The notes beneath the pieces are model-generated. The model was not told the origin of the DNA. It worked only from the letters and a program-made list of their open reading frames with translations, and did no database searches. DNA of 64,000 bases from Phycisphaeraceae bacterium (GTDB lineage: Bacteria > Planctomycetota > Phycisphaerae > Phycisphaerales > SM1A02): the NCBI GenBank assembly GCA_015709595.1, contig CP054178.1, forward strand, positions 1,989,205 to 2,053,204, in the 5' to 3' direction. Both the position numbers and the translations under genes were made by a program. The stretch's first letter is position 1. Each line of letters opens with the position of its first letter. Shown piece after piece: positions 7,205 to 27,504 of the stretch.

Positions 7205-9586
7205 ATGATGTCTCGCACGCACAGCATGGTTCGACGGTTCCCACGGCGCCCCGCGCGTCGGCGCGGCGTGGCGTCGGTGCTGGCGATGATGTTCCTGGTG
7301 ATCTTCGGCTCCCTGGCGGCGGTGATGGCGGTGGTGGCGCAGTCCAACCTGCGAACCGCCGACTCGTACCTGAAGGTGACGCGCGCCACCAGCCAGGCGG
7401 AAATGGGGCTCGTCTTCGCCAAGCGGCGTCTGGCCGAGGCGGCGCGCCGCTTCGTCGTGACCAAGGGCGTGGTGACCGACGACTTCGGGGAGAAGCTCTG
7501 GCTGGGCACGTATACCTCGCAGGACGGCACGGTCACGGTGCTGCCGCCCACCTTCGACGAGGGATCATCGCCGCTCGGACTGGCCGAGGCGATCCGCAAC
7601 GCCCATCTGGCGGACGAGCACCACATCGAGGTCGAGCCGGGCGACGCGCTGCTTCCTTCGATCGACGAGTTCGGCACGCTGCGCGTGCAGCCCATCGGCA
7701 CGATCGAGAGCGACGTGGTCGGTCCGCACTTCCGGCTCAAGTACGAACTGCTCGCCGACGGGCGGTATGTCCGCGTCACCTCGCAGGGCGTGGACGGCGA
7801 CGTGCGGCGGACGCTTCAGATGGACTTCCAGATCGTCAAGAAGATCGAATATGCCGTCATCAGCCCCAACCGCATCATGATCGGCAAGAACGTGCGCATC
7901 GAGGGGCCGCTCGGGTCGCGCTACGGCATCATGAACGGCGAGCTGGCGCCCCAGAACGGCAACCCGCTCGTCATGCGTTCGGACTTCTATCACCTGCATC
8001 CCGATCTGAACACGCTGCTCAACGACTTCTTCGCGGGCGTCGCCGAGTTCGACGTGGATGGAGACGGGCGGCTTCGACCCAACCACGTCACCGAGGCCAA
8101 CGGCCTGACCGAGCAGATGCCGGACTACGACGGCGACGAGTACGTGGACGACTTTGACCTGTTTCTGGCCCATTTCGACGCCAACAGCGACGGCATGGTG
8201 GTCTGGGACAAGGACCTGGCCGCCTCGCACGGGCTGTCCGGCCTGACCAACGAGTTCACCCTGGACGACCAGTTGGCGAAGCTGATCGACAACGCCAACT
8301 CGGACCGGAACGGCGACGGCGTCGTGGACGCGCTGGACCACGCGCTCGGATACGCCAACGGCGTGATCGACCGCAACGATTCCTACGCCAAGGTCAGAGG
8401 TCGCCTGGCCTTCGCGGTCAGCAAGAGCGACTGGGAAGGCGCCCGCAACGCCTCCTACCAGACGATGGTCCACGGGCCGATCGTCACCGACCCGGATCGG
8501 GCGCCGGTGACGTTCGAGGTCTCGGAGGCGGATCTGCTCAACATCACGACCGCCGACTTTGAGGAGACCGAGACCTGGCTGGTGGATAAGGCCCAGTCAG
8601 GCGCGTCCTTTGCGGACCAGGTGGCCTCCAACCTGGGAACGGGCGGCCTCTACACGGCGGAGTCGGATGCGCCGTGGGAGACCGTGCCCTGGGGAGCCAA
8701 GGGCTACTACGACTGGTACCGTCGGCCCATCTACGAGAACATGACGTTCCAGAATGTCGTCATTCCGATGGGCAACAACGGTCTGTTCAAGAACTGCACC
8801 TTCATCGGCGCCGTGTACATCGAAACGCACACCGACAACGGCGACGTCAACTGGAACTACGCCGGCATGGTGGACCGATCGGGCGGCGACATGGTGCCCA
8901 AGTACCCCGGTCTCACCGCGGACTACAACGGCACGCCCGTCGAGGACACGCGGCCCTACTCCAACAACATCCGGTTCCACGACTGCCGGTTCGCCGGTTC
9001 GATCGTCGCCAAGGCCACGACGCAGTACACGCATGTCCGCAACAAGATTCAGTTCACCGGCGACACCGTCTTCACGCTGGAGAATGAGAACCTGACCGAG
9101 GAGGAGATCGAGGAGCTCGCCAAGAGTTCGATCCTCATGCCCGGCTACTCCGTGGACGTGGGCCACTTCACGAACAGTTCGCTCGTGCCGGTTCAGCTCA
9201 AGGGCACGATCATCGCCGGCGTGATGGACGTGCGCGGCTCGGCGGACATCTTCGGCACGCTGCTGATGACCTTCCGCGCCGTGGAAGGCGAGGGGCCCCT
9301 GCACTATGGCGGTACGCCCGACGCCTTCAACACCACCATCGGCTACTTCGGGCCGGACGACGGCGACGCCGAGTCGGTCGATCCCTCCACGCTGTCGGAC
9401 ACCGACGGCGACGGCTTCCCCGACATCGGGGTGGATCTGGACGGCGACGGCTTCAACGACCCCTTCCTGGGCTTCGGCGAGATCACCATCCGCTACAACC
9501 CGGACGGCAAGCTCCCGGATGGCATCCCCTGGCCGATCACCATCGAGGCGGTCGAGGGCACCTACGTCGAAGGAGGTTCCCTCTGA
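7205..9586 (+). CDS. Large PilX-like surface/pilus protein with calcium-binding DxDxDG loops
   Basis: 793 residues. The basic N-terminus is followed by a TM helix (VLAMMFLVIFGSLAAVMAVV) near residues 25-45 and a QSNLRTADSYLKVTRATSQAEMGL-type helix resembling PilX/PilA-like assembly proteins, but without a clear G|F-T-x-x-E cleavage site. EF-hand/dockerin-type loops occur at about residues 280 (DVDGDGR), 325 (DANSDG), 367 (DRNGDGVVDALDH) and 732-750 (DTDGDGFPDIG, DLDGDGFND). Between them is a polar, beta-rich domain with no homologue I recognise. It lies in an operon between two prepilin-like genes and overlaps the next by one base. A calcium-dependent adhesin at the pilus tip is a reasonable inference. 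Confidence 0.65.
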   Translation: MMSRTHSMVRRFPRRPARRRGVASVLAMMFLVIFGSLAAVMAVVAQSNLRTADSYLKVTRATSQAEMGLVFAKRRLAEAARRFVVTKGVVTDDFGEKLWLGTYTSQDGTVTVLPPTFDEGSSPLGLAEAIRNAHLADEHHIEVEPGDALLPSIDEFGTLRVQPIGTIESDVVGPHFRLKYELLADGRYVRVTSQGVDGDVRRTLQMDFQIVKKIEYAVISPNRIMIGKNVRIEGPLGSRYGIMNGELAPQNGNPLVMRSDFYHLHPDLNTLLNDFFAGVAEFDVDGDGRLRPNHVTEANGLTEQMPDYDGDEYVDDFDLFLAHFDANSDGMVVWDKDLAASHGLSGLTNEFTLDDQLAKLIDNANSDRNGDGVVDALDHALGYANGVIDRNDSYAKVRGRLAFAVSKSDWEGARNASYQTMVHGPIVTDPDRAPVTFEVSEADLLNITTADFEETETWLVDKAQSGASFADQVASNLGTGGLYTAESDAPWETVPWGAKGYYDWYRRPIYENMTFQNVVIPMGNNGLFKNCTFIGAVYIETHTDNGDVNWNYAGMVDRSGGDMVPKYPGLTADYNGTPVEDTRPYSNNIRFHDCRFAGSIVAKATTQYTHVRNKIQFTGDTVFTLENENLTEEEIEELAKSSILMPGYSVDVGHFTNSSLVPVQLKGTIIAGVMDVRGSADIFGTLLMTFRAVEGEGPLHYGGTPDAFNTTIGYFGPDDGDAESVDPSTLSDTDGDGFPDIGVDLDGDGFNDPFLGFGEITIRYNPDGKLPDGIPWPITIEAVEGTYVEGGSL

Positions 9587-10203
9587 TGCGAGCGATTCAC
9601 CCGCGAATCCCGATCGCGTCCGTCCGGCGAAGGCGCCCCATGCCGCGCCGGGGCTTCTCGCTCGTTGAAATGCTGATCGCGCTGGCGATCACCTCCACGC
9701 TGCTGACGGCGGTGTTCGTGGCGCTGGACGTGTCCTTCCGCGCCTATCAGAAGACCACTGAGGAGGCCTCCACCCACACCATCTGCCGCCTGACCATGCA
9801 CCGCATGCTCACGCTGATCCGCACCGGGCGGGACTTCGGACCGTTCCCCAACACCATCAGCGCCAACGCCGTGGTGGAGAGCGACTTCATCGAGTTCTAC
9901 GCCAGCAACGGGCAGTTGATGCGGCTGGAGTACGTGCCCAACGAACAGGCGCTGTACCTGGTCAAGATCAACGGCGGCGAGGAGGACGCCTCGCTGCTGC
10001 TTCAGGGCGTCACGCAGCGTGACAGCGAGAACAACTACATCCCGCCCTTCACGCTGGAGTACCGCAAGGGCACCCAGCTCTACCGGGCCACCATCGACCT
10101 GACGGTCGTACCGGACGACAACCTCAGTCTGCAGATCGAGGGCAACGAGCCCTTCGTCATCCGCCTGGTCGCCAGCGCCGTGCCGCGCGGGCAGGCGTAT
10201 TGA
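9586..10203 (+). CDS. Prepilin-like protein (PilW/GspJ-like)
   Basis: 205 residues. The leader MRAIHPRIPIASVRRRRPMP ends RRG, followed by FSLVEMLIALAITSTLLTAV, a textbook prepilin cleavage site with Glu at +5. The ATG overlaps the previous stop (TGATG) and has a strong AAGGAGG at 9570-9576, so it is coupled to the 793-residue protein. The globular part is short and beta-rich (FIEFYASNGQLMRLEYVPNE). GspJ/PilW-type minor pseudopilins have this plan. This is the last gene of the pilus cluster before convergent asnS. Confidence 0.8.
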   Translation: MRAIHPRIPIASVRRRRPMPRRGFSLVEMLIALAITSTLLTAVFVALDVSFRAYQKTTEEASTHTICRLTMHRMLTLIRTGRDFGPFPNTISANAVVESDFIEFYASNGQLMRLEYVPNEQALYLVKINGGEEDASLLLQGVTQRDSENNYIPPFTLEYRKGTQLYRATIDLTVVPDDNLSLQIEGNEPFVIRLVASAVPRGQAY

Positions 10204-13678: not shown

Positions 13679-15316
<1,638 letters not shown>

Positions 15317-15592: not shown

Positions 15593-16120
15593 ATGGCGGA
15601 TGATCCCGGCGAGATTCGGCTGCTCTGTCTCGACGTGGACGGCGTGCTCACCGATGGCGGCATCTTCATCGACGATCAGGGGGTGGAGACCAAGCGATAC
15701 CACGTCCGCGACGGCAGCGGGCTGGTCATGTGGCGCAAACTGGGGTACCAGACGGCGTTGATTTCCGGTCGCACGGGCATGTGCGTCACGCACCGGGCGC
15801 GGGAACTGGGCATCCGCCACGTCCTGCTGGGGGTGCCGGACAAGGGCGAGGCGGTGGGGCGACTGGCGACGGAACTGGATATCCCGCTGGAGCAGGTGGC
15901 CGCGATGGGCGACGACCTGCCCGACCTGCCCATGCTGCGGATGGTCGGCTATCCTATGGCTGTGGCCGACGCCTGCCGCGAGGTACGCGAGACGGCGCGG
16001 TTCGTCACGGTGCGTCCGGGCGGCTTCGGGGCCGTGCGCGAGGCGGTGGAGCACCTTCTCAAGGCGCACAACCGCTGGTCGGACGCCTTGGCCCTCTTCG
16101 GAATCCAGGACCATGACTGA
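15593..16120 (+). CDS. kdsC: 3-deoxy-D-manno-octulosonate 8-phosphate phosphatase (KdsC, HAD superfamily)
   Basis: 175 residues, normal length. The HAD nucleophile motif LDVDGVLTDGGIF is near residue 13, the Ser/Arg motif ISGRTG near 57, and the metal motif AAMGDDLPDLPML near 108. The absence of a cap domain and the YHVRDGSGL segment fit the KdsC/YrbI subfamily, which dephosphorylates KDO-8-phosphate in lipopolysaccharide core synthesis. AAGGAGG ends seven bases before the start. It overlaps the next gene by eight bases; in proteobacteria kdsC is followed by lptC and lptA, matching the LptC/OstA-like neighbour here. Confidence 0.88.
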   Translation: MADDPGEIRLLCLDVDGVLTDGGIFIDDQGVETKRYHVRDGSGLVMWRKLGYQTALISGRTGMCVTHRARELGIRHVLLGVPDKGEAVGRLATELDIPLEQVAAMGDDLPDLPMLRMVGYPMAVADACREVRETARFVTVRPGGFGAVREAVEHLLKAHNRWSDALALFGIQDHD

Positions 16121-19100
16121 CCCCGTCGTCCGTTCGTCGGATGATCCCCCGCCCGTGGACGCCTACGGCCGCGGGCGTCGCTGGCTGCTGGTGACGTGCG
16201 GCGGCCTGCTGGCCCTGGCCCTGCTGGTGGTGGCGTTCAACCTGGATGGTCCGGACGATCCGGTGCGTCCGTCGGATGACGGGTCGCCGGTCGCGGAGAT
16301 CAAGCCGCCTTCGATCGCCGATGCGGCGTCGGGCGGGTTCTCCAACGTGCGCGAGGGCGACTTCGTCCTGGAGCGCGGCGGCTGGGTGCAGATCGCCGAC
16401 GCCCAGGGACGCCTGGTGCAGGAGTACACCGCCACTCGCCTGGAGCCGAAGCCGGGCGGAGAGATCGAGCTCATCAACCCCAGCGGCCGGTTTTACCTGT
16501 CGAATAACCGCATCCTCGTGGTGTCAGGCGATCAGGCCACGGCGCGCCGGCGCGACAACCGCATGCTGGAATCAGGCCGCATCAGCGGCAACGTGCGCAT
16601 CGCACTCTACGAAGGAACACGGGATACCCTGCCCGATCCGCGCACCATGGGGCCATCGGTCTATGTGACCACCAGCGAGGCGGTGTTCGACAACCTGCGC
16701 GGCGAGATCCGCTGCGACGCCGACCTGCACGTGCAGACCACGAGCATGGAGTTCTTCGGGCGCGGCCTGCTGGCCGATTACGACAAGGTGTACGGATTGA
16801 GGCGGCTGACGATCGACGAGGCGACTCGGCCGATCCGCATCGCGGGAGCGGCGCTGGCGAAGGCGACGAGCGGTTCGACGGAAGCCGCGCCTTCCACCGA
16901 CGGCGCCTCCACGCTTCGTCACGCGCCGGACCTGACCGGTCCCCACGCCGCGCCGGGCGGCGTGTCGGGTCGCGGGCTGGAGCTGCCTCCGTTCGTCGCC
17001 TCGGTGCGTCCTCAGTCGGCCCCGCCCCGCCCCGGCCCGGATGCCTCGGCGGCGGAGCGGCGCGACTGGCTGCGCGCCCGGCGCGAGATGGCCGAGCGCC
17101 GCGCCCGCGAAGCGTCGCGTCAGGCCGAGCCCGATCGCTTCTACCGCGCCACGTTCGAGCGCGACGTACACCTGTGGCGAGGCGTCGAGGCCGATCCTGA
17201 CCAGTTCATCACCGGGGACGTGCTTCGCCTGGTTTTCTCGATGGACAACTCCGAATTGCGCGAGTCGTCGGTGGCGGCGGCGGGTCGATCGCGAAGCGGC
17301 GGGGCGTGGATTCCCAGCATCCGCCCGCGCGACGTGGTGGCGACGCTGGTGCTCGCGGCGGCGCAGGATCCCGTTGATCCCTCGCGCGTGGCGCCAGCAC
17401 CGGGGCCGGACGACGTCTACCTCTCCTATGCCGGGCGGCTCATCGTGCTGCCGGTGGAGCCCGGCGAAGTGCATCTGGCGTCGAAGGACGACGTGCATGC
17501 CGAACTGGTCGGCTCGCCCGTCACGCTGGTGGACCGGGCCAAGGAAGCCACGGCCACGTGCGGGCGCATCGAGTACATCACCGCGGGCGAGCGATTGGCG
17601 CTGCTCGGCACCGACGAGCACACGCTCACGCTCGACAGCAGCGAAATCTCGCTCAAGGGAACGCGCTTCGACTACAGCGTCCGCGACAGCCGGGGCGAAC
17701 TGGTCGGGCCGGGCATGATGCATCTGGCCGAGGGCGTGGCGCGCATCGAAGGACAGGCGGCAGAGGCGGGCGCGATCGATCCGAACGCGCCGGCCCGGCC
17801 CGAGGCGCCGGCGCTTGACGGCGGCCTCGACATCGAGTGGTCCAGCGGCGTCGAACTGGTGTTCCTCGACAGCCCGAACGCCGGCGCGGGCCAGGGTGGG
17901 GGAAGCGGCGGGCGCGGGCGACTGGAGAAGGCCATCTTCCGAGGCGATGTGATCGTCAACGAAGAACGTTTCAACATGCAGAGCGATCTGCTGGAAGTTC
18001 ACTTCGACACCGAGCAGCCGCGCGTGGCGGACGCCGCCCAGGGCGAACGATCCGAGGCGATCCGGGAGATCGTCGCCGCGGGCGCGGTCATCGCCCGGGG
18101 GCTGGATGAGCGGGGGGGGCTGCTGGGCACCGATCACCTGCGCATTCTCTTCGCACCCGATCCGGATGATCCGAAGCAGGAGCGCAAGCCGCGCGAGATG
18201 TTCGCCACGGGCCGGTCGATGGTGCGCGACGCGACGCAGGAGGTGAAGGCCTCGAACCTGTACGTGCTGCTGGAGCCCGCGCCGCCGAAGCCGGTGGGGG
18301 AAGGCGCCGCGCCGACGCCGGATCGTTCCACGCAGTTCTCCGATCGGCGCATCCGCACGTTCCGCGCGGAAGAGAAAGTCGAGATCGTCATGGACAACGG
18401 GGCGCGGGCCTCGGGCGATCTGCTGGTCGCCGACGCGATCGCCGAGATCGCCGATCTGACGGGGCGTGAGGTGGTGGTGACGGGGTCGGAGGAAGGCGTG
18501 AATTTCACCGCCTCCGGCACGCACGCCAAGGTGACGCGCGAGCGAGGCCGCGCCACCGTGACGCTGGTGGGCGCGGGCAAGGCGAATATTCTCAACCCCG
18601 GGCGGAAGGACGCGAAGGAGTCGCCGGCGGAAGGCGCCGCGCCTCCCGCGCCGCCGGTCGATCCGCCCGCGGCCCCCTCGGATGCGCCGCCCGGAGGAAA
18701 CGAGGGGCTGGAGTCGCTTTCGCTCGACGCCCGCACCATCGATCTGGAGTGGACGGATCGTCTGACGTTCACCGAGGGGGCTGCCGCCGGCTCGGGCATG
18801 CTGGACGTGCGCGGCTCGGTCAAGGCGCGCTCCGAGACGCCGCTGGAGCGGAACTTCATCGACGCTCTCGTGCTGACGATGGAGTTCGAGGAGGAGGCGA
18901 TTCCCGGTGCGCCGCCGGGGGAGGGCGGCAAGCCGGCCACGCGACGCGTGCTCAGGCGGTTCACCGCCAAGGGTGATGCGAAACTTGAAACGCACCTGTG
19001 GGATGAGCCGGGTTACACCGGACCGCAGCGGATTCACTACATCGCCGGGCAGCACGTGGATTATCACCAGCGCACCCTCGAGGCCACGGTGCTGGGCGCC

Positions 19101-19664
19101 GGGGAGCTGCTGATTCACGACCCGCGCCCGGAGACATCCGATGCGGGCGCGGAACGCGGCGTCACCGAGGCCGGACCGGTTCCCATGATGGGCATGACGG
19201 GTCGGGGCACCACGCTCTTCCAGTGGCAGGGCGGCATGGTGATGAAGCAGCAGGTGGATGAGCGATACCAGATCGTGATGCAGCGAGACGTGACCATGCA
19301 GCGCAAGGGGCTGGATCACTCCACCATGACGCTCTCGACCGCCAAGCTGGACGTGGCCGTCAAGCGTCGGCCCGGCGCGGAGCGCCAGCCGGGACTCGAC
19401 TTCGGCGGCTCCACTGACGTGGAGAAGTTCGAGGCCCGCGGCGCGGTGCTCTTCAGCGGGCTGGGCCGCCGCGTGGACTGCGACGCGCTGACCTACACGA
19501 AGGCCACCGAGATCGCCGAGATCGCCGGCACGCCCACACGCGACGCGGAGATTTCCACGGAGCGCTCGCCCATCCCCACGCGGGCGCGCCGCTTCCGCTG
19601 GGACATGCTCGCCGACCGCGTGCAGATTCTGGAGCCGTCCACCACGGTGCCGCGCGGGGGGTGA
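16113..19664 (+). CDS. Giant LptC/LptA (OstA)-like envelope protein
   Basis: 1183 residues. A single TM helix (WLLVTCGGLLALALLVVAFN, about 24-43) anchors a long periplasmic part. Residues 70-250 read like LptC: GWVQIADAQGRLVQEY, then strands, then EAVFDNLRGEIRCDADLHVQ. Repeated OstA-like beta strands recur to the C-terminus (VEKFEARGAVLFSGLGRRVD, then AEIAGTP). Pro/Ala/Gly-rich linkers occur near 280-335 and 830-860. LptC and LptA are normally ~190 and ~185 residues. The gene overlaps kdsC by eight bases, matching the kdsC-lptC-lptA order, so a fused or expanded LPS-transport bridge is the best guess. No lptB or lptFG follows. Confidence 0.6.
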   Translation: MTDPVVRSSDDPPPVDAYGRGRRWLLVTCGGLLALALLVVAFNLDGPDDPVRPSDDGSPVAEIKPPSIADAASGGFSNVREGDFVLERGGWVQIADAQGRLVQEYTATRLEPKPGGEIELINPSGRFYLSNNRILVVSGDQATARRRDNRMLESGRISGNVRIALYEGTRDTLPDPRTMGPSVYVTTSEAVFDNLRGEIRCDADLHVQTTSMEFFGRGLLADYDKVYGLRRLTIDEATRPIRIAGAALAKATSGSTEAAPSTDGASTLRHAPDLTGPHAAPGGVSGRGLELPPFVASVRPQSAPPRPGPDASAAERRDWLRARREMAERRAREASRQAEPDRFYRATFERDVHLWRGVEADPDQFITGDVLRLVFSMDNSELRESSVAAAGRSRSGGAWIPSIRPRDVVATLVLAAAQDPVDPSRVAPAPGPDDVYLSYAGRLIVLPVEPGEVHLASKDDVHAELVGSPVTLVDRAKEATATCGRIEYITAGERLALLGTDEHTLTLDSSEISLKGTRFDYSVRDSRGELVGPGMMHLAEGVARIEGQAAEAGAIDPNAPARPEAPALDGGLDIEWSSGVELVFLDSPNAGAGQGGGSGGRGRLEKAIFRGDVIVNEERFNMQSDLLEVHFDTEQPRVADAAQGERSEAIREIVAAGAVIARGLDERGGLLGTDHLRILFAPDPDDPKQERKPREMFATGRSMVRDATQEVKASNLYVLLEPAPPKPVGEGAAPTPDRSTQFSDRRIRTFRAEEKVEIVMDNGARASGDLLVADAIAEIADLTGREVVVTGSEEGVNFTASGTHAKVTRERGRATVTLVGAGKANILNPGRKDAKESPAEGAAPPAPPVDPPAAPSDAPPGGNEGLESLSLDARTIDLEWTDRLTFTEGAAAGSGMLDVRGSVKARSETPLERNFIDALVLTMEFEEEAIPGAPPGEGGKPATRRVLRRFTAKGDAKLETHLWDEPGYTGPQRIHYIAGQHVDYHQRTLEATVLGAGELLIHDPRPETSDAGAERGVTEAGPVPMMGMTGRGTTLFQWQGGMVMKQQVDERYQIVMQRDVTMQRKGLDHSTMTLSTAKLDVAVKRRPGAERQPGLDFGGSTDVEKFEARGAVLFSGLGRRVDCDALTYTKATEIAEIAGTPTRDAEISTERSPIPTRARRFRWDMLADRVQILEPSTTVPRGG

Positions 19665-19673
19665 CCACGCCGG

Positions 19674-20177
19674 TTACGGTGCGGCGGACTCCTCCACCGG
19701 CTCCCCATGCGCCCGCAGCAGGAATCGATCAAGGTATTTTCGCTCGAACAGCGAGAGCGCGTCGTGCGTGGCGGAAGGATTTACGCCCCACACGCACGAC
19801 TTCAGCGTCGTCAGCTCGAGGTCCAGGTGAATCTGCAGTGAGCCGTCCAGCGTGAGCGCCGCGGGAATCCGGCCAGCCAGCCAGGCCGAGGCGGCGTTGA
19901 CCCCCGGCGCGCCGATGACGATGGACGGCCGCTCCATCAGATCGAGGTTGTTCAGATACCAGAGATCGGTGCAGACCATGATGTCGAGCCCCGACTGGGC
20001 GACGTCGATCCACTCGCCCCGGCGGGTGCGCCCGTCGATCCAGCCCCGGATGCGATCCCGCAGCCGGTAGGCGACCGGACGGTCGAAGACTTCCGCGCGC
20101 AGGTGGGCGCCGACCACGATCAGCAGCGAGCGATCGATGTCGAGGGGTTTGGTCTCGATCAGAACGGACTGGCTCAT
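19674..20177 (-). CDS. Conserved hypothetical protein
   Basis: 167 residues, no signal peptide or TM helix. Recognisable segments are SLLIVVGAHLRAEVFDRPVA, VCTDLWYLNN and RPSIVIGAPGVNAASAWLA. They suggest an alpha/beta fold with a glycine loop, but I do not recognise the family. It converges on the LptC/OstA-like gene (stops 10 bases apart) and is divergent from the pseudopilin at 20293. Confidence 0.7.
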   Translation of the reverse strand: MSQSVLIETKPLDIDRSLLIVVGAHLRAEVFDRPVAYRLRDRIRGWIDGRTRRGEWIDVAQSGLDIMVCTDLWYLNNLDLMERPSIVIGAPGVNAASAWLAGRIPAALTLDGSLQIHLDLELTTLKSCVWGVNPSATHDALSLFERKYLDRFLLRAHGEPVEESAAP

Positions 20178-20292: not shown

Positions 20293-20832
20293 ATGCGCCG
20301 CGCCTCATGCGCCATCCCGATGTCTGACCGGAAGGTTCAGGGTCGCCCCGCGCGCGGCATGACGCTGGTCGAACTGCTCATCGTCATCGTGGCGCTGGGG
20401 ATCCTGGCGGCGATCGTCTTCCCCAAGTACAACTCGATCGAGTCCGAAGCCAGGGCCAAGAGCGCCGCGTCGAACGTGCGCCGCGTGCGCGAGCTGATCC
20501 AGGTGCACCGGCACTCCGGGCTGTATCCGCTCAACGAGCAGGGGGTGCCGGAGGAGATTCACGCCGAGTGGTTCCGGGGCACGGGCATTCCCGAGCACTC
20601 CTGGACGGGCCGGGTGATGCGGATTCAGCGCATCGCCGCCGGGGCGACGACGCTCTACCCCCTCGAGAAGACGTTTGACCTGAACGACGCCAACGCGGTC
20701 AACGCGTGGTACAACCTCGACAATGGCCGGTTCTGCATCCTCGTGCCGCCCCGCGCTGACGATGCGGACACATTGGCGCTGTTCAACCTCGCCAACTCGT
20801 GCGAGGCCGCGTCGCTCGATCAGACGCAGTAG
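20293..20832 (+). CDS. Type II secretion pseudopilin (GspG-like)
   Basis: 179 residues. The leader ends GRPARG and is followed by MTLVELLIVIVALGILAAIV and FPKYNSIESEARAKSAASNV, the classic pseudopilin helix with Glu at +5 (M rather than F at +1). The C-terminal part has short strands and an NLDNGRFCILVPP stretch. GGGGACA lies before the ATG; a second ATG at 20320 would give a shorter leader. It stands alone, away from the pilT cluster, and probably feeds the same secretion or pilus machine as the secretin at 48627. Confidence 0.82.
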   Translation: MRRASCAIPMSDRKVQGRPARGMTLVELLIVIVALGILAAIVFPKYNSIESEARAKSAASNVRRVRELIQVHRHSGLYPLNEQGVPEEIHAEWFRGTGIPEHSWTGRVMRIQRIAAGATTLYPLEKTFDLNDANAVNAWYNLDNGRFCILVPPRADDADTLALFNLANSCEAASLDQTQ

Positions 20833-21458: not shown

Positions 21459-22631
21459 TCAGACCGCCTTGAGCGCGCTGGGGATGGGCATGCGCAGACA
21501 GCGTATGCCGGGCGGCATCGCGCCGATCACGCCCAGTATCAGTCCCGCGCCGAGCGACACGCCCAGCACGGGGGCGTCCACCACCAGCCCGAACGCGCCG
21601 ATGGAGAACCGCACCGCCACGCCGTCCAGCAGCCACAGCCCAAGGGCGCTGCCGATCAGCGCCCCGGCGGCGGTGGCGACCACCGACTCCTGCACCAGCG
21701 AGGCGAGGATGGCGACGCGACGAAACCCCAGCGCCTGCAGCGTGCCAAACTCGCGCACCCGCGACACGAAGGCCGCGTACATGGTGTTCAATCCGCCCAG
21801 CAGCCCGCCGATGGCGATGAGTCCGGCGGTGATCCATACCACCGCGCGGATCGGCGCGAAGAACGCCGACAGCCGGGCGTAGTAGGCGGTTTCGGGAATC
21901 GCCGTCAGCTCCAGGTCCAGCCGGGTGCGCGCGAAGAGATCGACATCGGAATACTCTCCTGCTTGGGGATCAAGCGTCAGGATCACGCATGAATCCGTCT
22001 CACGCTTCATGGCGGTCTTGAGGTCGGTCAGCGATGTCCAGATCTCGGCGTCCATCACCGTTCCCAGCGCCTCGAAGCGGCCCACGATGATCCACGGCTG
22101 CTTGTCGATCCACAACTCGCCTCCGACGGCCAGTTCGTCGGAACGCACGCCCAGCCGCGTGGACGTTGCGCCGCCGACCATCACTTCATTGCGCCCCTGC
22201 ATCGGCAGGCGTCCTTCGACGAGGCGCACCTGGTCGTGCACGAGCAGTGCGGCGGGGGTGACGCCTCGCACCATCACCAGTGCGCCTCGCTCGCCGTCCC
22301 GCGCGAGGCGAGTGGGGAGCTGCACGTGGACCTCGGGCGAGACGAAGGGGGTGCCCATGTCCTCGCGGATGCCGCGGATGGTGCCGGCCACGATGCCCGC
22401 CACGCGGGCGCCGATCTCGCTGCGCTCCACCGATTCCTCGCTGCCCGTGCCCAGCAGGATGACGTTGTTCGCCCCGCCCGATCCCTGCAGCGACAGCCCC
22501 ATGCCGCGCACGAACGCCGCCGCCGTGAGCACGATGAGGACCAGCAGGCCGCTGCCGCCCACCGTGAGCAGCAGGCGCGTGGGCGACCGCCCGAGGTTGC
22601 GGATGGCGTAATCGAGGGGGAGTCGTCGCAC
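21459..22631 (-). CDS. ABC transporter permease, FtsX/MacB family (second copy)
   Basis: 390 residues. Plan: N-terminal TM helix (LLLTVGGSGLLVLIVLTAAAF), a ~200-residue periplasmic MacB-PCD-type domain, then three TM helices (VVWITAGLIAIGGLLGGLNT onward), with the REFGTLQALGFRRVAILASL coupling helix typical of FtsX-domain permeases. It lies 18 bases downstream of a second permease with the same plan, so a heterodimer is likely. The pair works with the ATPase at 23816 in a tripartite efflux or lipoprotein-release-like system. Confidence 0.87.
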   Translation of the reverse strand: MRRLPLDYAIRNLGRSPTRLLLTVGGSGLLVLIVLTAAAFVRGMGLSLQGSGGANNVILLGTGSEESVERSEIGARVAGIVAGTIRGIREDMGTPFVSPEVHVQLPTRLARDGERGALVMVRGVTPAALLVHDQVRLVEGRLPMQGRNEVMVGGATSTRLGVRSDELAVGGELWIDKQPWIIVGRFEALGTVMDAEIWTSLTDLKTAMKRETDSCVILTLDPQAGEYSDVDLFARTRLDLELTAIPETAYYARLSAFFAPIRAVVWITAGLIAIGGLLGGLNTMYAAFVSRVREFGTLQALGFRRVAILASLVQESVVATAAGALIGSALGLWLLDGVAVRFSIGAFGLVVDAPVLGVSLGAGLILGVIGAMPPGIRCLRMPIPSALKAV

Positions 22632-22649
22632 GTGTCAGTTCCTTCCTGC

Positions 22650-23801
22650 TCACACGGCGCGGAAGCACGCGGCGATCTCGCGTCGCCCGGCCTGCCACGC
22701 GGGAACCAGCCCGGCCAGCACGCCTACGCCGCCCGCGATGGCCAGTCCGACGCCGAGGGTCGTCGGATCGATGTTGACCAGCACGCTCAGCCCTTCGTTC
22801 GAGAGGGTGAACGACCCCCAGTGCAGCACCGCGCCGGCCGCCCCGGCGCCCAGCAGGCCGCCGAGCATGCTCAGGAGCAGTCCTTCGGTGACGATGAGCC
22901 GGGCGATCAATCCGCCCCGGAAGCCGAGTGTCTGGAGAATCGCGTGCTCCTTGATGCGATCCTGCACGCTCAGGATGGTGGCGTTGGCGACCAGCCCCAG
23001 CACCGCCAGCAGGCAGCCCCATCCGACGAAGCGCGTGAATCGCACCAGTTCGACCACGTCCGCCCCGGCCTGGGCCACGAAGGCCTTCTCGGGGCGCGTG
23101 TGCGTGGGCTCCACGTCGTGGCGGAACTCCTCGTCGATGCGCCGGGCGACCTCCTCGAGTTTCGCCGGGTCATCCACGCGCACGTTGAACTGCGTGACGA
23201 TGCCCAGCTTGCTGCCCCGCGCCGCCTGCTGCAGAAATGGCAGCGACACGTACGCCACGTTCTGGTCCTGGTGTTCGGTGGAGCGCAGAATGCCCGCGAT
23301 GTTGACTGTGACGCCCGCGGCGTCGAACGACTGGCCCACCTTCAGACCGCGGCGCGAGGCGAGCCGCTCGCCGACCAGCGCGGCATCCGAGCGCCGACGC
23401 CACTCGTCAATCGATCCGTCGAGGATGGTCCAGTGCTTCGCCAGGTCATCGAGGCGATCCCCCGGCACGCCGCGGAAGGTCACCACGTCGAGCGACGCGC
23501 CGCAGTTGTTCACCACGATCTTCATCGGAACCACGTTCGTCACGCCCGGCAGCCGCGCAATGCGGTCGCCGTAATACTCCGGCAGGCGGCTGGTGGCGGG
23601 GCAGAAGCGGTTTTCGCGGTAGACGACGAGCGTGGTGTCCGCGGCGGTGACGCTGGTGGCCTCATGCACCCCGCGCTGCAGCGCCTGCACGGTGACGAAG
23701 AGGAACATCGCCACCGCGATGCCCGCGATCGTGAGCGCGCTGCGCGTGCGGTGACGCCAGACCTGCTTGAGCGTGAGCGGGATGTATCGTGGTCGGATCA
23801 T
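22650..23801 (-). CDS. ABC transporter permease, FtsX/MacB family (first copy)
   Basis: 383 residues. It begins MIRPRYIPLTLKQVWRHRTR followed by a TM helix (SALTIAGIAVAMFLFVTVQA), a large periplasmic domain, and three C-terminal TM helices with IKEHAILQTLGFRGGLIARL between them. This is the MacB/LolC-E permease plan without a fused ATPase. It sits 14 bases after the ATP-binding gene. The substrate cannot be read from sequence. Confidence 0.87.
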   Translation of the reverse strand: MIRPRYIPLTLKQVWRHRTRSALTIAGIAVAMFLFVTVQALQRGVHEATSVTAADTTLVVYRENRFCPATSRLPEYYGDRIARLPGVTNVVPMKIVVNNCGASLDVVTFRGVPGDRLDDLAKHWTILDGSIDEWRRRSDAALVGERLASRRGLKVGQSFDAAGVTVNIAGILRSTEHQDQNVAYVSLPFLQQAARGSKLGIVTQFNVRVDDPAKLEEVARRIDEEFRHDVEPTHTRPEKAFVAQAGADVVELVRFTRFVGWGCLLAVLGLVANATILSVQDRIKEHAILQTLGFRGGLIARLIVTEGLLLSMLGGLLGAGAAGAVLHWGSFTLSNEGLSVLVNIDPTTLGVGLAIAGGVGVLAGLVPAWQAGRREIAACFRAV

Positions 23802-23815
23802 GTCATGCTCCAGGA

Positions 23816-24517
23816 TCAGCGGGCGCCGACGGCGACGACCTGTTCGGCCTCCACCAGCCGCCCCTTCTCCAGATGGACCGTCCGCCCGGCGTACGACGCG
23901 CAGTGCGCGTCATGCGTCACCATGATGAGCGTGCGCCCCAGTTCCTTCGACAGCCGGGTGAGCAGGTCCATGATGTTCGCGGCCGATTCGCGGTCGAGGT
24001 CGCCGGTGGGCTCATCGGCGACGATCAGCGTCGGTTCGGTGACGATGGCCCGCGCGATGGCCACGCGCTGCTCCTGCCCACCGGAGAGCTGCCTCGGGTA
24101 GTGGTCGTGGCGGTCGGCCATGTCCACCAGGTCCAGCGCCGCCCGCACCCGTTCGTGCCGCTGACGCCTGGACAGACCATGCAGCAGCAGCGGCAGCTCG
24201 ATGTTCTCGTAGGCGGTCAGCACCGGCACCAGGTTGTAGAGCTGGAAGATGTAGCCGACGTTCTTCGCCCGCCATGAAGCCAGCCGTCCGCGCGACAGCG
24301 TGGCGATGTCGGTGCCGCCCACACGCAGCACGCCCGTGGTGGGGCGGTCGATTCCCGCGATCAGGTTGAGCAGGGTGGTCTTGCCGCTGCCGGACGGGCC
24401 CATCAGCGCCAGGAATTCCCCCGGCTCCACGTCCAGGTCGAGCGACTGGAGCGGCGTGATGGTCACGTCGCCCTTGTAGTACGACTTGCTGAGATTGCGG
24501 CACTCAATGAAGGGCAT
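23816..24517 (-). CDS. ABC transporter ATP-binding protein, MacB/LolD type
   Basis: 233 residues from MPFIECRNLSKSYYKGD. It has Walker A GPSGSGKTT near residue 40, the Q-loop FQLYNLVPVLTAYEN, signature LSGGQEQRVAIARAI, Walker B LIVADEPTGDLD, and switch His in VTHDAHCASYAGRT. The start at 24517 matches the family N-terminus; the longer ORF upstream overlaps the adaptor gene and has no family features. It overlaps the adaptor gene by 14 bases, indicating tight coupling. Confidence 0.93.
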   Translation of the reverse strand: MPFIECRNLSKSYYKGDVTITPLQSLDLDVEPGEFLALMGPSGSGKTTLLNLIAGIDRPTTGVLRVGGTDIATLSRGRLASWRAKNVGYIFQLYNLVPVLTAYENIELPLLLHGLSRRQRHERVRAALDLVDMADRHDHYPRQLSGGQEQRVAIARAIVTEPTLIVADEPTGDLDRESAANIMDLLTRLSKELGRTLIMVTHDAHCASYAGRTVHLEKGRLVEAEQVVAVGAR

Positions 24518-25979
24518 GATCGACGGCTCCTTCCATGGCGTGGACGGCGATCGAATCATCGCGGACGCGCACGATGCCGCCGGGCGCCAGCGGCCCACTC
24601 GATTGAACGATCACACGGTCGCCCGCCTTCACCCCGTCGAGAACCCGGACGTAGCCGGCGTCAGCGGCGGACTGGAGCGTGACGTCGCGCCGTTCCGCCA
24701 CGGCGCGGCCGCCGCGCGTGGGACGGGCCAGCCATACCACGGCGCGATCCGACGCTCGCTCGGTCAGCGCGGCCTCGGGCACATACAGCCGAAGTTCGGC
24801 GACGGCCTCGCCGTCGCGCGGCGCCCCGGCGCCGGCGGATGTCGCCTCGCCCCCGCTGACGAAGCGCACCCGCATCAGCATGTCGGGCTTGAGCACGGAG
24901 GGCGGCGCGTCCAGCACCACCTTCACCGCCACGGTGTTGCGCTGAATGTCCGCCTCATGCACGATGCGGCGCACCTCGCCGGTCAGCACGACATCGGGCA
25001 GGGCCTCAGTGGTCACTTCGGCTCGCGTGCCCAAGGCGATCTTGCCGAAGTCGGCCAGGGGCACATCCGCCCGCACCTGCAGCCGCGCGGGGTCGTAGAG
25101 CGAGAGCATCGCCGACATGCCCGCGCCGCCCCCCCCGGCCCCGCCCCCGCCCCCGCCCCCGGAAATCGCCATGCTGATGCGCGTGCCCGGCTGCACGGTG
25201 CGCGACAGGACCACGCCCGACACGGGCGCGCGGATCACCGTGCGCTCCAGGGCGAGCTGAGCGGTGCGGCGCTCGACTTCCGCCCGCTTCAGCGCCGCCT
25301 CGGCCACGGCGACGGCCGCGCGAGCGGCGTCGGCCTCCGCTTCGGCCGCCTTCAGGCGCAGCGTCAGGCGGGTGAACTCGCCTTCGGAAATGCCGCGAAT
25401 CTCGACCAGGCCGCGCTTGCGCTCAACCTCATCGCGCAGTTCGGCGACGCGAGCCAGCGCGATCGGCAGGTCGGCCTTCATTCGCTCGACGGACGCCCGC
25501 TCGGTGAGCACTTCCGCATCGGCCCGTTCGAGCGCCAGCCGCGCATCCTCGTCGATCAGCGTGACCACGACCTGCCCCGCCTCCACGCGCTCGCCCTCGA
25601 GCACGTGCACCTCGCGCACCACGCCCTCAATGAGCGGCTGGACCAGCACCGCGTAGGGCTCCGGCTCGACCCATCCCGGGGCCTGGGCGAGAATCACCCG
25701 CGCGGCCGGAGTGGACGCGGATCGTGCTTCGGGCGACGCTTCGATCAGCGCGGGCGGGCGTGCGATGACTGGCAGCACCGTCACCTCGACCGCGGGTCGC
25801 AGCGACTCCCGGGCGCTGTAGCCCAGCACCCCCACGGCGCCCAGCAGCATCGCCAGGGGCAGCAGCACGCGCGTGGACCAGCGGAAGCGGGGGCGGGGAA
25901 CGTCGATTGCGCCGCCTCGCCCCCTCGTCGGGGCGCCCGCGGCCAGCGTGAGCAGATTGCCGGTGGATCGGGTCACCAT
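24504..25979 (-). CDS. Efflux membrane fusion (HlyD/MacA-type) adaptor protein
   Basis: 491 residues. A TM anchor (VLLPLAMLLGAVGVLGY, about residues 38-55), then a lipoyl half (VREVHVLEGERVEAGQVVVT), a long coiled coil (about 170-265: ADAEVLTERASVERM to AALKRAEVERRTAQLALERT), the second lipoyl half (TVIRAPVSGVVLSRTVQPGT), an unusual poly-Gly run near residue 285, and a C-terminal beta-barrel region (VPLADFGKIALGTRAEV). It bridges inner-membrane permease and outer-membrane channel. The start overlaps the outer-membrane gene by seven bases and the stop overlaps the ATPase. Confidence 0.87.
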   Translation of the reverse strand: MVTRSTGNLLTLAAGAPTRGRGGAIDVPRPRFRWSTRVLLPLAMLLGAVGVLGYSARESLRPAVEVTVLPVIARPPALIEASPEARSASTPAARVILAQAPGWVEPEPYAVLVQPLIEGVVREVHVLEGERVEAGQVVVTLIDEDARLALERADAEVLTERASVERMKADLPIALARVAELRDEVERKRGLVEIRGISEGEFTRLTLRLKAAEAEADAARAAVAVAEAALKRAEVERRTAQLALERTVIRAPVSGVVLSRTVQPGTRISMAISGGGGGGGAGGGGAGMSAMLSLYDPARLQVRADVPLADFGKIALGTRAEVTTEALPDVVLTGEVRRIVHEADIQRNTVAVKVVLDAPPSVLKPDMLMRVRFVSGGEATSAGAGAPRDGEAVAELRLYVPEAALTERASDRAVVWLARPTRGGRAVAERRDVTLQSAADAGYVRVLDGVKAGDRVIVQSSGPLAPGGIVRVRDDSIAVHAMEGAVDHALH

Positions 25980-27370
25980 GACGCGCCTCCTTCCGTCGTG
26001 CTGGGGGGAGCGGAATTGTCATCCGTGTTCGACGGACCGAGAAGCCGCGACAGCGCCACGCCCGCGCGAGCTTCCGCCGCGATCAGGTCGATCAGTCCGA
26101 GCCGCCCTTCCAAGCGCTGCCGAAGCGTCTCGAGCAGCATGAAGGTGTCCACCTCGCCCAGTTCCGCGATGCGGCGGGCGTCGTCGAACTGGGCGTCGAT
26201 GAGCGGCAGAATGCGCTCTTCCATGACGCGGCGGCGCTCCGCCGCGCCGTGCAGTCGGGCGATGGCCTGGGCGCGGTCCGAGGCCAGGGTTTCCATTGCG
26301 GTTTCGAGCATCACCCGGGCTGCGTCGCGCTCGGCGCGGGCCTCGGCGATGGCTCGCTGGTTGCGATTGAAGATTGGCAGAGGCAGCATGAGGCCGACGC
26401 GGACCCTGTGCTCCTCGTCCTCGTACTCGTAGCCGGGCCCGACGCCCAGGTCGGGGTACTGCCTGCGGATCTCATGCGCCAGGGTTCGCTCCGCCGCCTC
26501 GTGCATGGCCTTCAACGTCTGCAGCGTGGGGTGTTCGATGAGCGAGCGCGTCGCGTCCATCGGGAGCGACTCCGGCGCCGGCGGCTTCGGCAGGTCGCGC
26601 GCCGGGGACAACGTCACGTGCGGCGCCAGCCCCATCAACTGGCGCAGGCGCAGGGCTGCGAGGGTCAGCGACTCTTCCATCGCGTTCAGGTCGTTGACGA
26701 GCTTCATTCGTTCGATGTGGAACAGCCGTGCCGCGGTGCGAGTCATTTCGCCCGCCTGCTCGATGCGGTCCACGATGGCGATGAGGGCGTCGAGTTCCGC
26801 CTGATACGCACGGGCCGTCTCCACCTGGTGCTCCATCGCGGCCCGCTCCACCCACGTCTCGCGGACCATCATGCGCGTCTCCCACTCGCGCTCGGCGATG
26901 CGGTGGAGTTCAACGGCGTGCCCGGCGTCAGCCAGGGCGATCTCCGTCTTGAGCCGGCCGGAAACGGGCAGTGTGAAGGAGATCGAAGTCATGAACATCC
27001 ACGGGTTCGCCATCCCGCTCACGATGCGGGTGACGTCCATGGCGAGCACCGGGTCGTCCCACAGTCCGGCGTGGGCGGCGCTTGCGGCGGTCACTCCCGC
27101 GCGGGAGCGCGCCACGCGCAACTCCGCGTTGCCGAACAGCGCCAGGGCTTCGGCCTCGGCCAGGTTCAGGCCGTCATCAAGCGTCCACGCCGCAGGGGTG
27201 TCGGCCGTCGCGGCGATGCGCGCCGCGAATGACGCCAGCGTGTCGTTCGTGGGAACCGAGTTCAACCAGGCGGCATAGTGGCGCTCCAGCTCCGGCGGGC
27301 TGGGCTGGTACGTCTGGCAGCCGGTCAGGGCCGCCGACAGCAGCGGAATGAGAAACCAGCGAATGGACAC
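25973..27370 (-). CDS. TolC-family outer membrane efflux lipoprotein
   Basis: 465 residues from a GTG at 27370. The signal peptide FLIPLLSAALTGCQTYQ has a lipobox, so this is a CusC/OprM-like acylated channel. Two OEP repeats carry long helices, for example EAEALALFGNAELRVARSRA and ARAERDAARVMLETAMETLA. The start was moved from 27445 because the GTG has GGGAG upstream and places the lipobox at residue ~17. It is first of the operon proper, overlapping the adaptor by seven bases, with the Cys-rich gene 134 bases upstream. Confidence 0.87.
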   Translation of the reverse strand: MSIRWFLIPLLSAALTGCQTYQPSPPELERHYAAWLNSVPTNDTLASFAARIAATADTPAAWTLDDGLNLAEAEALALFGNAELRVARSRAGVTAASAAHAGLWDDPVLAMDVTRIVSGMANPWMFMTSISFTLPVSGRLKTEIALADAGHAVELHRIAEREWETRMMVRETWVERAAMEHQVETARAYQAELDALIAIVDRIEQAGEMTRTAARLFHIERMKLVNDLNAMEESLTLAALRLRQLMGLAPHVTLSPARDLPKPPAPESLPMDATRSLIEHPTLQTLKAMHEAAERTLAHEIRRQYPDLGVGPGYEYEDEEHRVRVGLMLPLPIFNRNQRAIAEARAERDAARVMLETAMETLASDRAQAIARLHGAAERRRVMEERILPLIDAQFDDARRIAELGEVDTFMLLETLRQRLEGRLGLIDLIAAEARAGVALSRLLGPSNTDDNSAPPSTTEGGASW

Positions 27371-27504
27371 GGTCGCACTCCCAAGGGGTTCGAGCACATC
27401 AACTGCCTGCCTTGTTGTCCGTCGAACGCGCGGGTCCGAGCGCACGATGGCGGCGCATCGACAGCGTCGTCCGAACAGGCGAGGGTCTCGCGTGGGAGTG
27501 AGAG

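Follow-up and report, generated by a model that had tools for sequence, protein, structure and literature searches.

A putative single-chain LptC/LptA-like bridge protein encoded beside kdsC in Phycisphaerales and other Planctomycetota

The window is a 64,000-nucleotide stretch of a Phycisphaeraceae genome (contig CP054178.1, positions 1,989,205 to 2,053,204 of the forward strand); the genome is a single contig of 3,841,330 bases with a completeness of 99.11. We identified in the window a kdsC-type gene that overlaps an open reading frame (ORF) of 1183 amino acids (aa), as an earlier note on this DNA had reported. Both ORFs are confirmed, and their 8-nt overlap suggests possible translational coupling (Table 1). 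The product of the long gene is likely a single-chain periplasmic bridge of the lipopolysaccharide (LPS) transport (Lpt) pathway, in one piece and of variable length, for which we infer transport, contacts and cargo. One long membrane-anchored protein seems to take the place of separate LptA and LptC and would work without any extra LptA.

The KdsC-type call was made with TIGR01670; the 175-aa ORF does not pass the narrower KdsC equivalog NF007019 (139.6 vs 208). KdsC helps make 3-deoxy-D-manno-octulosonate (Kdo), an inner-core sugar of LPS. The gene order in E. coli is kdsD-kdsC-lptC-lptA-lptB, and LptC and LptA of that organism are about 190 aa each. The locus described here shares with E. 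coli LptC and LptA its position beside kdsC, an N-terminal anchor, and LptC-like and then LptA-like folds in that order. The kdsC-lptC-lptA order recognized in the earlier note is matched here, with both kinds of predicted fold in a single chain. Unlike the two proteins of E. coli, there is one 1183-aa chain with several LptA-like blocks, and lptB is located elsewhere.

Table 1. Features of the kdsC and bridge gene locus (positions in the window; protein modules are predicted).
Feature	Position	Strand	Basis
kdsC-type gene (3-deoxy-D-manno-octulosonate 8-phosphate phosphatase family), 175 aa	15593..16120	+	TIGR01670, 138.8 bits vs cut-off 106.95
LptC/LptA-like bridge protein gene, 1183 aa	16113..19664	+	ORF, conservation, AlphaFold2 model
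Overlap of kdsC stop with bridge gene start, 8 nt, ATGACTGA	16113..16120	+	Sequence
Predicted N-terminal membrane helix, aa 20-44	16170..16244	+	AlphaFold2 model
LptC-like module, aa 81-251	16353..16865	+	6mit_C Z 10.3, root-mean-square deviation (rmsd) 4.0 over 147; 9doq_C Z 10.2, rmsd 3.2 over 135
Low-confidence linker, aa 252-338	16866..17126	+	Predicted local distance difference test (pLDDT) <50 at 250-271, 273-305; helix 313-335
Beta-taco block A, aa 343-538, disordered 383-421	17139..17726	+	LptD 7omm_A Z 10.6, rmsd 3.0 over 160, spanning aa 363-682
Beta-taco blocks B + C, aa 572-828	17826..18596	+	LptD Z 14.0 on aa 620-828; LptA 2r1a_C Z 13.2, rmsd 2.1 over 122; repeats
Beta-taco blocks D + E, aa 874-1175	18732..19637	+	LptD 4q35_A Z 13.3, rmsd 3.2 over 165; LptA 2r1a_C Z 11.9, rmsd 2.6 over 130; repeats
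groEL (Cpn60), upstream of kdsC	13679-15316		Pfam

The full-length AlphaFold2 model, built from a 45-sequence alignment, has a mean pLDDT of 77.5 and a predicted template modelling score (pTM) of 0.64. It consists of one N-terminal helix followed by strands nearly throughout; stretches with pLDDT <50 include aa 45-84, 250-271, 273-305, 383-421 and 542-568. The single anchor recurs among homologues, 42 of 45 of which have a 19-residue hydrophobic segment near the N-terminus. Structural matches were listed with VIA-align and also with plain Foldseek. The top 18 VIA-align rows for the full model are all Lpt proteins, with LptD and LptA on aa 901-1171 and LptC on aa 81-251. Rows of the LptC fold have Z scores of 8.8-10.3 (one such row, 6mjp_C, with an rmsd of 22.7, was left out of use). 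Across the predicted models, the LptA/LptD N-terminal domain could be aligned over aa 360-828 and 901-1171. The middle part (aa 331-850), folded separately from 39 of the 45 sequences, reached a pLDDT of 81.2 and a pTM of 0.81; Lpt proteins fill its top 24 VIA-align rows (best Z 14.0), and the first other protein is OspA (Z 9.2). The best plain Foldseek matches of the full model are LptDE chains.

The confidently structured parts of the predicted protein match Lpt-like folds. The stack for which the earlier note proposed a structure prediction is seen in the model, where the chain is predicted to fold into LptC-like, LptA-like and LptD_N-like parts. For the units, beta-taco is a better term than the jellyroll of the note (the usage of one account, PMC10353723). 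Middle and C-terminal blocks have the N-terminal domain of LptD as their best predicted structural match (Z 13-14), but the protein has no beta-barrel and the genome encodes its own LptD. LptA itself is a separate soluble periplasmic protein, and here the LptA-like blocks sit in one anchored chain.

Profile comparison of slices of the protein family revealed internal repeats. Probabilities of 96-97%, which are the output of that comparison taken alone, relate aa 430-635 to 745-905, 565-735 to both 868-1010 and 1025-1180, and 868-1010 to 1025-1180. The N-terminal slice gave at best 67.9% with any other slice. From strands and repeats we read about four LptA-like blocks beyond the LptC-like module, which is an estimate from the model rather than a measured count. 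Hydrophobic residues alternate with a two-residue period in the 53 predicted strands (0.83 vs 0.67, standard deviation 0.025; none of 2000 shuffles reached 0.83). The strands for this test were taken from the model itself, and the hydropathy scale had W and Y set as hydrophobic.

The 1183-aa sequence by itself provides only a trace of this relationship. PF03968 gave an E-value of 0.0089 (16.7 bits vs a cut-off of 20.4), there was no LptC match (PF06835, TIGR04409) at E <=1 in Pfam or NCBIfam, and a PDB sequence search with the single protein returned nine matches, none of them Lpt proteins. With the family profile, LptD and LptA occupy the first four of 44 PDB rows (E 0.061 to 0.36). Among 43 members (the 45 aligned homologues minus two dropped for size), matches at E <=0.1 were obtained for PF03968 in 30, PF06835 in 17, TIGR04409 in 30 and TIGR03002 in 18. 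Nine members were also scanned singly. The NCBIfam LptC model matched six of the nine, none above the cut-off (five at 116-241, and L051 at 452-484). PF03968 matched seven of the nine at residue 271 or beyond, and six of the nine exceeded the 20.4 cut-off; of the other two, L061 gave just an OstA_2 trace and L073 no Pfam match. The LptC/OstA-like label given in the earlier note is weak for this sequence taken alone, where PF03968 is below threshold, and is supported by relatives and by the predicted fold.

Clearer matches come from elsewhere in the phylum. A Brocadiaceae homologue in a kdsD-kdsC locus (L116, 658 aa) has LptC at 47-196 and two LptD_N stretches, and passes both NCBIfam equivalogs in one chain (LptC 71.6 vs 38; LptA TIGR03002 72.1 vs 71.7, narrowly), as well as Pfam LptC (61.1 vs 21). 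A protein of the planctomycete 'Candidatus Jettenia ecosi' is 97% identical to it, and the L116 genome belongs to the phylum of the window. L116 can be linked to the window family because two proteins from the class of the window, L130 and L131, match the window-family profile (E 2.7e-38 and 1.3e-43) and also exceed the Pfam LptC cut-off (33.8 and 24.9 vs 21); both are below 38 in NCBIfam. In profile comparison, Brocadiaceae LptA blocks reach up to 84% with the window family.

The gene is conserved, and we rule out a chance ORF. A search with the 1183-aa protein gave matches in 54 of the 61 genomes from its family and order, counting its own, and a C-terminal module profile (A4) matched 60 of the 61, in frames of 383-1445 aa. 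This profile matched all 53 genomes with completeness >=90% and contamination <=5%; the lone miss (G013) is 72% complete, and its N-terminal part lies near a contig end. Each of the 60 genomes has one strong match. There are nine weak second matches, of which seven are apparently in the same frame (G006, G017, G019, G021, G034, G035, G048) and two are elsewhere (G057, G058). The 45 aligned homologues are 876-1441 aa (median 1122), by ORF starts as predicted. A scan of named genomes with the 1183-aa protein found no relative.

Linkage to Kdo genes is also conserved. Of 50 order-level loci, 41 have a kdsC gene immediately upstream and in the same orientation (including L067, whose over-long start puts it beyond the distance window of the automated count), as do four of seven further ones; two loci without an upstream kdsC, L048 and L060, lie at contig ends. 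Elsewhere in the phylum, kdsC occurs in 17 of 20 loci, a biased sample picked for an LptC match. The large ORF that follows is >=559 aa in 16 of these 17 (L133 and L135 counted by position and length, as their ORFs had no match to the family profiles; the L135 ORF scores 26.1 bits with PF03968, above the cut-off) and a 174-aa LptC in one. Among 23 named loci matched by the Brocadiaceae profile, 21 have kdsC, within 670 nt in 19. We identified a KdsD-type isomerase upstream in L116 and L130 (TIGR00393 above cut-off), and SIS-CBS proteins in L177 and L175. A kdsD-kdsC fusion was considered for long ORFs of L178 and L091 and rejected; HAD families alone matched, and over-long starts are likelier.

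The bridge is not peculiar to one genome, as its C-terminal module is found in 60 of the 61 order-level genomes and homologues occur elsewhere in the phylum. TIGR04409 gave 69 matches in 65 of 199 genomes sampled across the phylum, with 57 of the matches in open frames of >=500 (frames, not confirmed proteins). In this sample there were no matches in the window's own order, so that TIGR04409 non-matches carry little meaning. PF03968 matched six of the 61 family and order genomes, all in frames of 806-1180 aa. Small versions occur, including a 359-aa protein, with kdsC upstream, in which an LptC block (50-171) precedes an LptA block (224-331) (L176), a 330-aa protein with LptC above and LptD_N below the cut-off (L175), and a 343-aa protein that has LptD_N at 224-326 and whose frame also contains an LptC match (L169). 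Longer checked examples are 559-664 aa, 848-956 aa and, within the order, 876-1441 aa. Three loci (L167, L171, L173) are cut by contig ends. One genome (G137) has a second match elsewhere, of 197 aa (L170). The 447-aa ORF of L177 matched no Pfam family. Two-piece bridges were considered at L116 (the only Brocadiaceae locus in the neighbour scan), L121, L135 and L175 and rejected: the scanned neighbours are a HEAT-repeat/GDPD protein, a class I tRNA synthetase, an autotransporter-like barrel and a major facilitator superfamily (MFS) transporter, with no LptA.

Several observations weigh against a one-piece bridge, or against its generality. The 1183-aa protein reaches none of the curated cut-offs for LptC or LptA, and the Brocadiaceae LptC block and the N-terminal slice of the window family do not match in profile comparison (1.5%). 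Row 19 of the full-model VIA-align list is an unrelated radial-spoke protein with a Z of 10.3, as high as the LptC rows; thus, a Z near 10 is not decisive alone. Two unrelated chains rank first in plain Foldseek for the middle model (probability 0.10 and 0.14). The hydrophobic moment of block E is ordinary, being reached by 206 of 1000 shuffles. Some members of the phylum are organized differently. One locus (L125, 3007-3531, genome G087) has kdsC and a plain 174-aa LptC-like ORF, then ApbE and NeuB genes, and no adjoining LptA. Another (L168, 3438-5288, G063) has an LptC match within the frame of a 244-aa ORF, followed by a 369-aa ORF with LptD_N (48.6 bits). The LptC profiles built in this analysis did not match the 244-aa ORF, and no kdsC was found in the locus. 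These look like two neighbouring genes and are possibly an unfused state in the phylum.

We identified other parts of the Lpt pathway in the genome, as the earlier note had proposed to check: an LptF/LptG-type pair (C1:1384585-1387351), LptD (C1:77359-78528), and LptB (C1:1571803-1572510), the sole one of 43 ATP-binding cassette (ABC) matches above the cut-off, located away from the kdsC and bridge locus. Separate LptA or LptC genes were not found with four models, PF03968 (E 0.001, also 0.01), PF06835 and PF13100 (E 1) and TIGR04409 (E 0.01), a limited result, since none of these searches detects the large protein either. In the LptF/LptG pair, the first permease (L092:4511-6184) is 557 aa, compared with about 370 aa usual for this type; its best family stretch is 26-141, and its periplasmic part is possibly enlarged.

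The protein could alternatively be an enlarged LptC that forms the inner-membrane part of the bridge, with a separate, highly diverged LptA completing the path to LptD. Such an LptA could escape models that miss even the large protein, and a few members of the phylum have a plain LptC or apparently separate adjoining genes. We consider this unlikely, as several LptA/LptD_N-like blocks are already predicted in the chain, up to its C-terminus, and the C-terminal profile has its single strong match per genome, with a weak second one elsewhere in only two. Less probable still is an Lpt-type bridge for a glycolipid other than LPS. LPS is the presumed cargo here, and one account describes an Lpt-type system in Borrelia, which lacks LPS (PMC10353723). 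The overlap with a KdsC-type gene and the kdsD-kdsC linkage in relatives nevertheless point to Kdo-bearing LPS. TamB and YhdP are single-chain, inner-membrane-anchored periplasmic conduits. A phospholipid bridge of this AsmA/TamB type, to which the protein is similar in being one-piece, anchored, about 1200 aa and mostly beta, is very improbable and family membership is rejected, given that none of the six Pfam families matched at E <=0.1 by the 43 members is an AsmA or TamB model (the two most frequent being LptD_N and LptC), the top structural rows are Lpt proteins, and the cargo, judged by the locus, is different.

The fused, one-piece bridge proposed in the earlier note is supported by the predicted folds and, within its limit, by the four-model search for separate LptA and LptC. 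Its composition is not one LptC plus one LptA, but an LptC-like module with several LptA-like blocks. The arrangement is not limited to one genome; much of the phylum has it, in differing lengths and with the exceptions above. In the open-licence PMC papers searched, we found no report of a fused or one-piece LptC-LptA bridge, which may be in print elsewhere.

In a single-chain bridge, the anchor helix and LptC-like module would seat on LptF/LptG, as LptC does, and LptB2FG would push LPS into the groove. Lipid A would move along one continuous groove, not between separate LptA subunits, and by analogy with E. coli, as outlined in one account (PMC6164715), the groove would deliver LPS to LptD. 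How far the bridge extends would depend on how many blocks the gene encodes rather than on LptA oligomerisation. Tentatively, and at somewhat short of an even chance, we propose that the gene-fixed number of beta-taco blocks in the planctomycete covalent bridge is a ruler for the distance from inner to outer membrane at transport sites. Starting from a plain LptC or a 359-aa LptC+LptA, lineages would have extended it to as much as 1441 aa, ending LptA oligomerisation, and the 'reduced' Lpt system would be complete but fused.

LptD was identified in all planctomycete genomes published at the time, according to one report (PMC3422733), and a hidden Markov model survey describes the Planctomycetes Lpt system as 'largely reduced' (PMC8871954), a picture that the bridge would correct. 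The number of LptA subunits per bridge in vivo is described as uncertain for E. coli (PMC6164715). A bridge length written in the gene would remove this uncertainty, as the sequence would give a length to set against the periplasm width measured by cryo-tomography. A natural single-chain conduit would also serve structural work on LPS transport.

Several other genes surround the pair. A 167-aa ORF facing the bridge gene (19674-20177, -) has no Pfam family at E <=1. Two proteins on either side of the region (9586-10203 and 20293-20832, +) have pseudopilin-type N-terminal methylation motifs; the second, downstream of the bridge gene, is GspG-like, but below the cut-off. Beyond it is a likely MacAB-TolC-type efflux operon (21459-27445, -), with genes for two FtsX/MacB-like permeases, an ABC ATPase, an HlyD-type adaptor and an outer membrane efflux protein.

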